From Variovorax sp. MHTC-1 (GTDB taxonomy: Bacteria; Pseudomonadota; Gammaproteobacteria; Burkholderiales; Burkholderiaceae_C), in assembly GCF_003984645.1 (NCBI RefSeq), contig NZ_RWKI01000008.1, positions 1-64,000 on the forward strand: 64,000 nucleotides of DNA, written 5' to 3'. Positions 29 to 3,468 of the stretch are shown here, in pieces. The notes beneath the pieces are model-generated. The model had not been told where the DNA came from, did not search any database, and saw nothing but the letters and a program-made list of their open reading frames with translations. The translations under genes were made by a program, and so were the position numbers. Numbering within the stretch: position 1 is the stretch's first letter; each line of letters begins with the position of its first letter.

Positions 29-343
29 ATGGCCACCAAGCAAAAAATCCGCATCCGCCTGAAGGCGTTCGACTACAAGCTGATCGACCAGTCGGCCGCC
101 GAGATCGTGGACACTGCCAAGCGCACCGGCGCGATCGTCAAGGGCCCCGTGCCCCTGCCGACCCGCATGAAGCGTTTCGACATCCTGCGTTCGCCGCACG
201 TCAACAAGACGAGCCGCGACCAGTTCGAGATCCGCACGCACCAGCGCTTGATGGACATCGTCGACCCGACCGACAAGACCGTGGACGCGCTGATGAAGCT
301 CGACCTGCCGGCCGGCGTGGACGTCGAAATCAAGCTTCAATAA
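29..343 (+). CDS. rpsJ: 30S ribosomal protein S10
   Basis: Part of the 30S subunit head; in bacteria the same protein (NusE) also pairs with NusB in transcription antitermination, which is family knowledge. The 104-residue product has full family length and canonical sequence, with PLPTR at residues 42-46 and RTHQR at 69-73. An AAGGAA ribosome-binding site at 18-23 sets the ATG. The genes upstream lie outside the window. Unlike the usual arrangement, rplC does not follow directly: a terminator and two lipoprotein genes intervene. Confidence 0.98.
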
Positions 344-366
344 GCAACTTCGGTTACTTCGCCACG

Positions 367-404
367 GCCCGCCCGCAGAAATGCCGGCGGGCTTTGTTCT
401 TTTT
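367..404 (+). terminator. Rho-independent terminator after rpsJ
   Basis: A 7-bp GC stem (GCCCGCC at 367-373 with GGCGGGC at 386-392, plus an inner GC/GC pair) is followed by a T-rich tract at 393-404. It sits 24 bp after the rpsJ stop and would end the upstream ribosomal transcript before the lipoprotein genes. Confidence 0.8.
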
Positions 405-471
405 GACACCTGGCTGTGGCATTCTCCGGGAGGGCGGCGATTGGCCGGACGTGAACGCTCAGAGGGCGAAA

Positions 472-2073
472 ATGAAGACTAGAACATGGCTCTTGCGGGC
501 CTTTGCGGTGGCTGTCGCGGTGGTGCTTGGCGCATGTGGCGGCGGGGGCGGGGGCGGTGGCGGTGGCGGCTTCCCGATCGGGGGCCTGCCGGGCGCGACG
601 ACCGTCACGCTGAACGGCACCGTTACTTTCGATTCGGTGCCGAATGCGACAGGGACGCTTAACTACGCGGCCGTCGCGGTCAAGCCGGTTCGCGGCGCCG
701 TGGTCGAAGTGGTCAACGGCGCGTCGGCGGTCGTAGCGACGGCGAGCACCGACGCCAACGGCGCCTATTCCGTTTCGGTTCCCGCGAACACATCCGTCAT
801 GGTGCGGGTCAAGGCGCAGATGCTGCAGACCGGTTCGGGCGCGAGTTGGGACGTCACTGTCCGCGACAACACCCAGTCCGATGCGATCTACGCGATGGAG
901 ACGCCTGCTTTCTCCACCGCCGCAGTGGGCACGCTCACGCGCGATGTCCATGCGCCCTCCGGCTGGAACGGCACGAGCTACGCATCGACCCGCGTCGCGG
1001 GGCCTTTTGCGCTGCTCGATACGGTCTACACGACGCAGGCCAAGGTTCTCTCGGTGGCGCCGGGCACTGCGTTTCCGCTGCTGCGCGTGTTCTGGAGCGT
1101 CAATAACGTTCCGGCGTCGGGTACCTTGGCGCTGGGGCAGATCGGAACGACTTTCTTCACCAACAGAAGCACGGGCCGCGCCATCTATGTGCTGGGCAAG
1201 GAGGACGTCGATACCGACGAATACGACGCGCCCGTCGTGGCGCACGAGTGGGGGCACTACTACCAGTCGGCCTTCAGCCGCGACGATTCGCCGGGCGGCA
1301 GCCATTCCCTGAGCGAACTTCTCGATCGGCGGCTGGCATTTTCCGAGGGCTGGGGCAATGCCTGGTCCGGCATCGCACTGGGACGCAGCAACTACACCGA
1401 TTCCGTTGGCCCGAGCCAGGCGCAGGGTGGAAACCTCAACCTGGCCGCAGGTGCGTCGTCCAATCCAGGCTGGTTCCGCGAAGCTTCGATCCATTCGATC
1501 CTGTGGAACTTGAACAGCCAGGTCGGCTTCAAGCCGATACATGACACCCTTACCGCTGCATCCTTCAAGAATGGCGTGGCTGTGACCGCCATCCATCCGT
1601 TCGCGGCCGCTTTCCAGGCGGCGGCACCGGGCAGCGCCGCTGCTTTGAATACGTTGCTCGCTGGCCAGAACATCAGTGCCGCCCCGAACGACCCCTTTGG
1701 GCAGCAGGAAACGAACAACAGCGGCGGCACACTGGCGAGCTATGCATTGCCGATGTACCGCCCTGCCGCGGTTGGCGGGAGTACTTCCGCTTGCGTCACA
1801 AATCTGGGCGGCGCGGGCAACAAGCTGGGCAGCTACGTCTATCTGCGGTTCACCGCGCCTAGCGCGCGCAACTACGCTATCAGCGCCACCGGCCCCGGCG
1901 GATCGGATCCGGACTTCGTTGTCTATCAGGGGCGTCAGATCGTCGACGCTAGTGTGGAAACGACTGTCGTCCAGACTGCTTCTGTCCCCCTTGCCGCCGG
2001 CGAAAGCGTTCTGGTCTTGAACGACTTCAACAACTCGTCGTCGAACACATGTTTCACCGTCACCATCAATTGA
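472..2073 (+). CDS. Putative zinc-metalloprotease-like lipoprotein
   Basis: A 533-residue predicted lipoprotein; I do not recognise a named family. The start at 472 is chosen because AGAGGG (461-466) lies 5 nt upstream and the protein then begins with a clean signal peptide ending in a VLGAC lipobox (Cys22). A run of 11 glycines follows the cysteine as a linker to the envelope. Residues 258-265 read HEWGHYYQ, an HExxH zinc-binding motif, and a SEGW segment places Glu292 as a possible third ligand, as in gluzincin-type peptidases. The N-terminal third looks like a carboxypeptidase-regulatory or Ig-like beta domain, and the C-terminal part resembles a pre-peptidase C-terminal beta domain. It lies inside the S10 cluster, between a terminator and the rplC promoter. 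Peptidase activity is inference. Confidence 0.72.
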   Translation: MKTRTWLLRAFAVAVAVVLGACGGGGGGGGGGGFPIGGLPGATTVTLNGTVTFDSVPNATGTLNYAAVAVKPVRGAVVEVVNGASAVVATASTDANGAYSVSVPANTSVMVRVKAQMLQTGSGASWDVTVRDNTQSDAIYAMETPAFSTAAVGTLTRDVHAPSGWNGTSYASTRVAGPFALLDTVYTTQAKVLSVAPGTAFPLLRVFWSVNNVPASGTLALGQIGTTFFTNRSTGRAIYVLGKEDVDTDEYDAPVVAHEWGHYYQSAFSRDDSPGGSHSLSELLDRRLAFSEGWGNAWSGIALGRSNYTDSVGPSQAQGGNLNLAAGASSNPGWFREASIHSILWNLNSQVGFKPIHDTLTAASFKNGVAVTAIHPFAAAFQAAAPGSAAALNTLLAGQNISAAPNDPFGQQETNNSGGTLASYALPMYRPAAVGGSTSACVTNLGGAGNKLGSYVYLRFTAPSARNYAISATGPGGSDPDFVVYQGRQIVDASVETTVVQTASVPLAAGESVLVLNDFNNSSSNTCFTVTIN

Positions 2074-2084
2074 GGAGCGCATCC

Positions 2085-2594
2085 ATGCATGCACATCGCA
2101 GCTTGGCAGCCATCGTCGTCGCATCGCTGGCGATGGGCGCGTCCTTGCAAGCCTGCGCCGACAGCAAGCCGGAGCGCAGTGCGCCCAAGATGTCAGCAGC
2201 GCCGGCCAAGTCGAACGGCTCCGGCGTTTCCGTGCAGTACCGCGTCGACGGCACCCCGCAGGCCGGGGTTGCCCTTCCAATCGTCCTGAGCTTCGACGGC
2301 ATCACCGATCCCGCCGGCGCGTCGGTTCGCCTGACGGCCGAGGGCGGCCTGTCGCTGAGCGGCGCCGGGGGAACGCAGCCGCTGCCGGCCGGTCAGACGA
2401 CGACCTTGACGGTCCAGGTCGTACCTGGCGCCGAAGGCGTCGGCTATCTCCATGTGTTCACCACCCAGCGCGGCGCCACCAGCGCGACCTCGGTGCCCGT
2501 TCAGGTCGGCAAGGTGCCTTCCGCGCTGCCTGCCAGCGGCACCCTCAAGCAGACGCCGGACGGCGACAAGATCCATGCCATGCCGGTGAAATAG
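2085..2594 (+). CDS. Hypothetical lipoprotein
   Basis: A 169-residue protein with an N-terminal signal peptide and an LQAC lipobox (Cys24), so probably a lipoprotein. The mature part looks like a small beta-rich domain, with repeated Val/Thr-rich strands and a VPVQVG segment near the end, as in Ig-like or cohesin-like folds. No catalytic motif is visible. The ATG at 2085 follows GAGGAGC at 2072-2078, which overlaps the stop of the metalloprotease-like gene 11 bp upstream. The two are probably co-transcribed and may act together at the envelope. Function unknown. Confidence 0.7.
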
Positions 2595-2622
2595 GGTCGC
2601 TGCGCGCTTCCTTTCCGGCGGC

Positions 2623-2652
2623 TTGCTCTTGCGGTCGTCTGCGGGCTATAAT
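2623..2652 (+). promoter_or_regulatory. Sigma-70 promoter for the rplC-rpsQ operon
   Basis: A perfect TATAAT at 2647-2652 is preceded, with an 18-bp spacer, by TTGCTC at 2623-2628. Transcription from about 2659 would give a leader of roughly 130 nt before rplC at 2788. This explains how the remaining S10 genes are expressed once rpsJ is separated from them. The leader holds no convincing ORF and could carry ribosomal-protein feedback control (inference). Confidence 0.7.
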
Positions 2653-2787
2653 CTTCGGCTCTGCCTAACTTGCGCCTTTTGGGGTGAAAGTTGCGCAGAG
2701 CTTTATCAACCTTCTTCCGCATACCAAACGCTGTCGCCAATTGAAGTGGCAGCGGCGGGAGAGGATTCCATTTTTGGAGAAAAACCA

Positions 2788-3468
2788 ATGAGTCTGAGCA
2801 ACTCCCTCGGGTTGCTGGGCCGCAAGGTGGGGATGATGCGTCTCTTCACCGATGACGGGGATGCAGTTCCCGTCACGGTGGTGGATGTGTCGAACAACCG
2901 CGTGACCCAGATCAAAACCCAAGAGACCGATGGCTACGTCGCACTGCAAGTGACGTTCGGATCGCGCAAGGCATCGCGCGTCACCAAGCCCGAAGCAGGC
3001 CACCTCGCCAAGGCTGGCGTCGAAGCCGGCGAAATCATCCAGGAATTCCGCGTGACAGCCGATACGGCGGGTCAGCACAAGGCCGGCGGCGTGATTGCCG
3101 CGGCCAGCGTGTTCGCGGTGGGCCAGAAGGTCGACGTGCAAGGCACTTCGATCGGCAAGGGCTACGCCGGCACCATCAAGCGCCACAACATGAGCTCGCA
3201 GCGGGCGTCGCACGGTAACAGCCGTTCGCACAACGTCCCCGGCTCCATCGGCATGGCGCAGGATCCCGGCCGCGTGTTTCCGGGCAAGCGCATGACGGGC
3301 CACCTCGGCGACGTCACCGTGACGACCCAGAACCTCGACGTCATCCGTATCGACGAAGCGCGTCAGCTGCTTCTGATCAAGGGCGCGATTCCGGGCTCCA
3401 AGGGTGGCTTCGTCACCGTGCGTCCGGCCGTCAAGGCCAAGCCGCAAGCGGCCGAAGGAGCGAAGTAA
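2788..3468 (+). CDS. rplC: 50S ribosomal protein L3
   Basis: An early assembly protein of the large subunit whose central loop reaches toward the peptidyl-transferase centre. The 226-residue product begins with [12 protein letters not shown], typical of L3, and carries the conserved [16 protein letters not shown] segment around residues 130-145. The ATG at 2788 is chosen over upstream in-frame codons because TTGGAGA (2774-2780) is correctly spaced and the family start aligns there. It is the first gene of the re-initiated operon; its stop overlaps the rplD ATG by 1 nt. Confidence 0.97.

Follow-up and report, generated by a model that had tools for sequence, protein, structure and literature searches.

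A candidate L4-type leader RNA between rpsJ and rplC in Variovorax sp. MHTC-1

The window analysed here is a stretch of 64,000 nucleotides from Variovorax sp. MHTC-1 (contig NZ_RWKI01000008.1, positions 1 to 64,000) containing an S10 ribosomal protein cluster, in which rpsJ (S10) and rplC (L3) are separated by two further genes, termed gene A and gene B. All four genes lie on the same strand, and rplC is followed by rplD from position 3468 and then by the rest of the cluster. The order of rpsJ, a terminator-like hairpin, two genes, a TATAAT promoter and rplC had been described in a first-pass annotation of this DNA, and coordinates, folds and profile matches confirm it (Table 1). Unremarked in that annotation, a structured leader of about 130 bases (2657-2787) lies directly before rplC, with the L4 gene rplD next, so that it would head an L4-encoding mRNA. 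The region 2652-2790 folds at -59.5 (z -5.2), a value reached by 0 of 200 shuffles. This leader, its distribution and its possible ligand are the main subject of this report.

Table 1. Features of the rpsJ-rplC region, with positions in the window.
Feature	Position	Strand	Basis
rpsJ, ribosomal protein S10	29-343	+	NCBIfam PRK00596.1, 1.4e-50; identity unambiguous
Intrinsic-terminator-like hairpin (366-393) and U-rich tail (to 404), 3' of rpsJ	366-404	+	fold
Motif TGTGGCATYCT, between terminator and gene A	415-425	+	51/57 S10-context loci
Gene A: lipoprotein with predicted thermolysin-fold metallopeptidase domain and C-terminal collagen-binding/PPC-like domain	472-2073	+	predicted model, motifs
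Gene B: small exported protein, predicted alpha-2-macroglobulin MG-like beta-sandwich, putative gene A partner	2085-2594	+	predicted model, linkage
Putative promoter of rplC unit: TTGCTC (2623-2628), 18 bases, TATAAT (2647-2652)	2623-2652	+	sequence, family-wide pattern
Leader hairpin P1, at the expected 5' end	2657-2702	+	fold; comparable hairpins in relatives
Leader helix P2 (2711-2720 with 2755-2764), encloses P3	2711-2764	+	fold; covariation
Leader hairpin P3, loop CAAUUGAA (2738-2745), L4-leader-like element	2729-2754	+	fold, covariation
Short hairpin overlapping rplC Shine-Dalgarno GGAG (2776-2779)	2767-2779	+	fold
rplC, ribosomal protein L3, opens downstream unit	2788-3468	+	NCBIfam TIGR03625.1, 1.3e-80; open reading frames; unambiguous

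P2 and P3 together show the conserved, covariation-backed structure that is generally looked for in ribosomal leaders. Across 66 distinct P3 sequences, 89.1% of the cells are paired, changes on both sides occur in eight of the nine pairs, and the covariation score is 0.649 vs. 0.231 (standard deviation 0.017). The score, the paired cells and the double changes were each reached by 0 of 500 shuffles, and slides scored at most 0.164. One locus with only four P3 pairs (L098) was left out of this set. The inner seven pairs of P2 covary as well, with changes on both sides in six of them. When P2 and P3 are scored together in 52 sequences, 97.8% of the cells are paired and the score is 0.493 vs. 0.249, with 0 of 500 shuffles reaching any of the five measures. 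RNAalifold, left unaided, finds P3 and does not find P2. Alignment A1 comprises 52 of 76 type A loci with near-duplicates left out, and one of its rows (L069) starts from the wrong ATG. The rplC start of three further loci was missed by the pattern, which places them outside alignments A1 and A2 and the promoter and terminator gap counts given below; on later reading, two of these (L099 and L125) carry the P3 hairpin and the third (L095) has the loop with a broken stem. Downstream of P2, pairing of the CUUCCAUUUUUGGAG type can form the Shine-Dalgarno hairpin in some members of the genus.

The 76 type A loci, in which some genomes are counted twice, have in common a TTTAYYAAC block and the P3 loop. 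The loop reads CAAUYGNW in the family; its CCAATYG motif is present in 110 of 111 scanned loci, the remaining one (L127) being a one-base variant, and nearly all family loci read have the P3 hairpin right ahead of rplC. Outside type A, family members retain P3 within different flanking sequence, with P2 replaced by another architecture. By eye, the loci L105, L108, L113-L124 and L126-L129 keep the P3 loop and lack the TTTAYYAAC block and P2, and several of them have an AGCCC/GGGCT pairing before the Shine-Dalgarno sequence. A covariance model of the type A leader matched 64 of 150 family genomes once each, and all 64 matches end -1 to +4 bases from the start of the rplC match, consistently upstream of ribosomal protein genes.

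Beyond the family, a hairpin was counted where a stem of at least 5 base pairs closes an eight-base CAATNG loop, and was scored by its distance to rplC. The regions read represent 40 of 115 genomes of the order with rplC and 60 of 123 such genomes from the rest of the class. In the order, the hairpin lies no more than 110 bases before rplC in 35 of the 40 regions, which span 39 families, and many families carry in its loop the sequence CAAUCGUA, known from the Escherichia coli S10 leader. The sole other such hairpin in these regions lies 357 bases before rplC (L184), by position within the rpsJ coding sequence. Shuffled 150-mers yield such a hairpin in 4 of 4000 cases (about 0.1%). Upstream of rpsJ, the order regions read showed no hairpin of this kind; 33 of 40 offer at least 150 bases there, 21 of 40 offer at least 350, and rpsJ was not located in four. 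As a separate observation, the E. coli hairpin CCCATCAATCGTAATGGG, searched with up to two mismatches, has matches (with one or two) in 19 of 143 class genomes (L312-L333), among which only that of G378 was seen to be a hairpin before rplC (L225).

The leader is preceded by promoter-like sequence throughout the family. A -10 element with the same downstream context occurs in 59 of 64 family gaps, compared with 255 of 1280 after shuffling; in 57 of the 59 family gaps, a TTG stands at -35 spacing. Set side by side, the family gaps run from the -10 element at once into the structured leader, whether the insertion is there or not. In Cupriavidus metallidurans, a start mapped by Cappable-seq is assigned to rplC (score rank 526, TTGCCC and TATAGT, RpoD score 11.6), with its distance to rplC not stated in that table (PMC9045368 Table 2). 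Two genomes of the family separate the genes altogether. In G118, rpsJ and rplC lie about 0.9 Mb apart on one contig, and a P3-type hairpin still stands before rplC; in G173, they lie on different contigs, with rplC in mid-contig and again preceded by the hairpin, and with rpsJ beginning 181 bases into its contig and followed by other open reading frames. Other open reading frames flank both genes in G118 (L136/L137) and in G173 (L138/L139). G173 passes the -10 pattern; G118 fails it and shows GATAAT by eye. Since the hairpin stays before rplC when rpsJ is elsewhere, the leader belongs to the rplC unit.

These findings bear on the earlier proposal that the two inserted genes uncouple S10 from L3 onward. 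Separate transcription is backed by the sequence, but the insertion is ruled out as the cause, because the rplC promoter-like sequence and leader are family-wide and occur without it, and because rpsJ and rplC are apart in the two genomes described above. As judged from sequence comparison, the A-B pair sits at a probable transcription-unit boundary already present in the family. In a number of relatives (L063, L064, L071, L077-L083 and others), the rplC promoter was seen by eye to lie inside an almost perfect inverted repeat, AACGCGGACTTGC...GCAGTCCGCGTT, with arms overlapping the -35 and -10 elements. This repeat, which the window does not have, might act as an operator or as an overlapping terminator of rpsJ.

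On the rpsJ side of the boundary, the terminator-like hairpin has a folding free energy of -23.9 kcal/mol (z -2.4), equalled by 4 of 200 shuffles. A hairpin of at least 6 base pairs followed by a T run was scored by script in all 57 loci with rpsJ detected by pattern upstream of gene A, a count made without a shuffle control, a similar criterion in family gaps giving about 10% by chance. At its thresholds, a pattern scan listed no promoters and four terminator-like sites, all on the minus strand, and thus neither the post-rpsJ hairpin nor the rplC promoter; this is attributed to the interrupted stem of the one and the weak -35 element of the other. Support for the hairpin therefore comes from fold and conservation, and both elements are presumed to be active in this strain. 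Between the hairpin and gene A, the exact motif TGTGGCATYCT was not found with gene A copies located away from the S10 context; one locus listed under other contexts that carries it (L275) does have rpsJ upstream. The motif may be part of a promoter for the A-B pair. A TTGACA at the end of the terminator was rejected as such a promoter, there being by eye no -10 element at suitable spacing.

The split itself is a real and ordinary trait of the Variovorax group. Both genes are on one contig in 55 of 61 genomes of the genus sample, and the rpsJ-rplC spacing is 2426-2616 bases in 50 of these, about 11 kb in two and 239-277 bases in three; the 50 genomes rule out a strain oddity or an assembly error. 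By coordinate comparison, the interval from rpsJ to rplC holds a long match to gene A in 52 of the 55, the same 52 that have the long gap. Two Variovorax loci (L130 in G024 and L131 in G023) hold about 8.5 kb of extra sequence between rpsJ and gene A. Outside the genus, 130 family genomes have rpsJ, of which 126 have 90-371 bases between rpsJ and rplC (median 217) and four are outside the count with the genes not together (G118, G125, G170 and G173; G125 and G170 are fragmented assemblies). The first-pass annotation had proposed this synteny comparison and had allowed that a shared family order would lower the novelty of the split, which is the case at genus level. Most of the named records in which gene A stands between rpsJ and rplC are from Variovorax; the others comprise three from Pseudacidovorax (L279, L280 and L282) and a small number of differently named assemblies. 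In two more Pseudacidovorax gene A loci (L286 and L307), no rplC is nearby.

Gene A starts at ATG 472 and encodes 533 amino acids with an LGAC lipobox. Its protein carries HEWGH at residues 258-262 and E292, and H258, E259, H262 and E292 are invariant across 33 sequences. The protein thus shares with thermolysin-like peptidases (M4 and M36) the HEXXH motif, a glutamate ligand about 25-35 residues further and, in prediction, the thermolysin fold: its AlphaFold2 model (predicted local distance difference test, pLDDT, 89.5) aligns in VIA-align 2 with aureolysin and thermolysin over about 260 residues at Z of about 19-20, a root-mean-square deviation (rmsd) of about 3.1-3.3 and about 10% identity, the best comparison of this predicted model giving Z 19.8 and rmsd 3.1 over 260 residues. 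Unlike M4 and M36 peptidases, to which the identity is this low, it has N- and C-terminal beta domains of its own and a lipobox. Up to E 1, the window protein is matched by none of the M4 or M36 models of Pfam and NCBIfam, and gene A is therefore called thermolysin-fold and not placed in M4. A few of its relatives weakly match M12B, M61 or M57 models, and a sequence search of the PDB gave a single match at E 0.22. Residues 429-533 resemble a collagenase collagen-binding domain (VIA-align 2, Z 12.7). In all 33 members, the N-terminal beta domain is weakly like carboxypeptidase regulatory domains (E of 0.1 or less, best 1.3e-6); for the window protein, this match stays under the curated cut-off. 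An NCBIfam match suggesting a transporter subunit was rejected, as it lies far under its cut-off and covers the beta domain only.

Gene B starts at ATG 2085 and encodes 169 amino acids, with an LQAC lipobox in the window and the lipobox cysteine missing in many relatives. The window protein matches no Pfam family. Its predicted model (pLDDT 84) aligns with Salmonella alpha-2-macroglobulin at Z 11.4 (rmsd 2.3, 98 residues), other beta-sandwiches being close behind. Gene B and its relatives share a conserved C-terminal tail, LK..P.G..I..MPVK. For locus analysis, 80 of 101 gene A relatives were retained, and gene B follows gene A in 78 of these (exceptions L308 and L309). In other loci, the pair has neither rpsJ nor rplC in the stretch read; examples are draft assemblies of Rubrivivax, Polaromonas and Ramlibacter, and second copies within Variovorax. 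We infer that A and B may be an envelope protease and its small partner or inhibitor. Their place beside S10 looks like an insertion into a tolerated boundary. The event, its direction and date being inferred, would go back to an ancestor shared by Variovorax and its close relatives, and the pair would have been kept since then without breaking either unit.

Together, gene order, conservation, covariation and the shared loop lead to a reading to which a probability of roughly 60% is given: the cluster comprises two transcription units, an L4-type autoregulatory leader lies between rpsJ and rplC, S10 is outside the L4 loop, and the A-B pair was inserted at the boundary. The rpsJ unit would end at its own terminator-like hairpin, and the L3-L4-L23-L2 unit would start at the promoter before rplC, its mRNA opening with the structured leader and presenting P3 near the ribosome-binding site. 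In the E. coli S10 leader, most of the energy of L4 binding comes from a small hairpin. In Variovorax, the putative and most likely ligand of P3, as judged from its sequence, is L4, which in excess would bind the hairpin and stabilise the P2/P3 fold beside the Shine-Dalgarno sequence, lowering translation of rplC and the genes coupled to it. In some Variovorax, the Shine-Dalgarno sequence may also be base-paired within the small hairpin. Repression is probably translational, because P3 is not followed by a terminator U-run and the ribosome-binding site is about 10-25 bases away. As S10 is not in the leader-controlled unit, it would stand outside the L4 loop.

Several observations weigh against this interpretation. 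The covariance model leaves 86 of 150 family genomes unmatched at E 0.001, including those with the other surround. In the order, five of the 40 regions lack the strict hairpin, one having a version with 4 base pairs (L182) and four having none (L157, L161, L165 and L166), and the sequence available upstream of rpsJ is limited to the lengths given above. Elsewhere in the class, the hairpin precedes rplC in only 6 of 40 and 3 of 20 regions (9 of 60) and is found nowhere else in them. For P3, 6 of 500 shuffles attained the two measures based on the number of pairs or of pair types, and related sequences may beat shuffles without structure. A terminator 3' of rpsJ is present in 16 of 64 family gaps vs. 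6.6 expected and is not general in the family, so that in many relatives transcription may run on from rpsJ into rplC. The likeness to E. coli, as far as sequences tell, consists of one eight-base loop and a position in the same operon, with different stems and a different gene downstream, and excerpts of a review describe the E. coli-like L4 site as not conserved even in Pseudomonas (PMC10931766).

It has also to be considered that the leader serves autoregulation by another protein of the unit (L3, L23, L2 or L22), the match to the E. coli loop being convergence or the mark of recognition by another factor. L3 is encoded by the first gene after the leader, and the ligands of new leaders in Table 1 of Eckert and Weinberg 2020 are assigned from prior knowledge or from the only or closest gene (PMC7247131). 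This explanation nonetheless seems unlikely, given that in E. coli a leader with this loop places the same operon under L4 control (excerpts of PMC10578931 and PMC10931766) and that only about 0.1% of shuffled 150-mers hold such a hairpin. Distinctly less probable is that the hairpins merely shield the 5' end of the mRNA or tune translation with no ribosomal protein bound. P1 stands where a stabilising 5' hairpin would, at the expected 5' end, and P2 is swapped for another architecture in part of the family, but a loop that is the most conserved part above a freely covarying stem is the pattern of a recognised element. That the lipoprotein genes were placed to couple envelope proteolysis with ribosome synthesis, as first suggested, is highly improbable and finds no support: the A-B position is kept in 52 of 55 genus genomes, and in the window the end of gene B is 52 bases from the rplC -10 element, with no terminator seen between them, so that A-B transcripts could read into rplC, but in all 57 loci scored a terminator-like hairpin separates rpsJ from the pair, which is also found in surroundings away from rpsJ-rplC, and the gap works without the pair in three of the 55.

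On the interpretation favoured here, that of an L4-type leader, what is new is best read as a variant of that leader which stands between rpsJ and rplC and occurs widely in the order. A known Rfam family is ruled out, as the window has no match at gathering scores in Rfam 15, and 2600-2800 searched up to E 10 gave only a chance match to a long non-coding RNA (E 5.1) on the other strand. The E. coli S10 leader is itself unmatched in Rfam up to E 1, and absence from Rfam therefore says little on homology. A literature search for ribosomal leaders, rplC or the S10 operon in Betaproteobacteria, at the level of titles and abstract openings and with subscription journals thinly covered, found no such report. 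Among the 20 new leaders of Eckert and Weinberg 2020, the excerpts of that paper give none for betaproteobacterial rplC (PMC7247131). Table 1 of the same paper does list an L4 leader candidate in Archaeoglobi that likewise stands before an rplC-rplD-rplW-rplB unit; this candidate is archaeal and of borderline rating, and it is likened to the Variovorax leader by gene context, with no comparison of structures.

The E. coli S10 leader, studied by Lindahl, Zengel and co-workers, is likewise a 5' leader of S10-operon mRNA carrying rplC and rplD and under L4 control. According to excerpts of two papers, L4 control there requires stem D, stem E is the attenuator, and L4 affects transcription as well as translation (PMC10578931, PMC10931766). 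In E. coli K-12, the sole case upstream of rpsJ that was read directly, the others being taken from the review (PMC10931766), the hairpin CCCAU-CAAUCGUA-AUGGG is the last before rpsJ, at 62 bases, and is followed by a U-rich run; its loop occurs once in the 1.1 kb stretch searched, and from its fold the hairpin is read here as stem E. The neighbouring E. coli K-12 hairpin GCUCCCAAUCGGGGAGC (L151) also has CAAUCG in its loop region, and the E. coli leader may therefore hold two copies of the recognised element. Variovorax shares with E. coli a hairpin with a CAAUCGUA-type loop near the start of the first gene, CAAUUGAA being its form in the window. In contrast to the E. coli element upstream of rpsJ, the Variovorax element lies between rpsJ and rplC; the two are unlike in stem sequence and in the remainder of the leader; and P3 is followed by no U-rich run, since 2755-2787 in the window, as in alignment A1, is purine-rich and leads into the Shine-Dalgarno region. 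Excerpts of the review place the S10-operon L4 site as narrow and of late origin in gammaproteobacteria (PMC10931766). It is possible, and put forward only tentatively, that the L4-type hairpin is not a late enterobacterial feature, being common to nearly the whole betaproteobacterial order and to scattered lineages of the class, where it would govern an rplC-led unit with its own promoter, and that the E. coli site upstream of rpsJ, which adds S10 to L4 control, is derived. Autogenous control has a textbook case in the S10 operon. How that control arose and how it is wired becomes directly testable with a leader that is backed by covariation, carries the same loop and follows rpsJ across the betaproteobacterial order, and the 66 distinct hairpins offer dozens of natural variants of a possible L4 target to set beside the E. 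coli leader.

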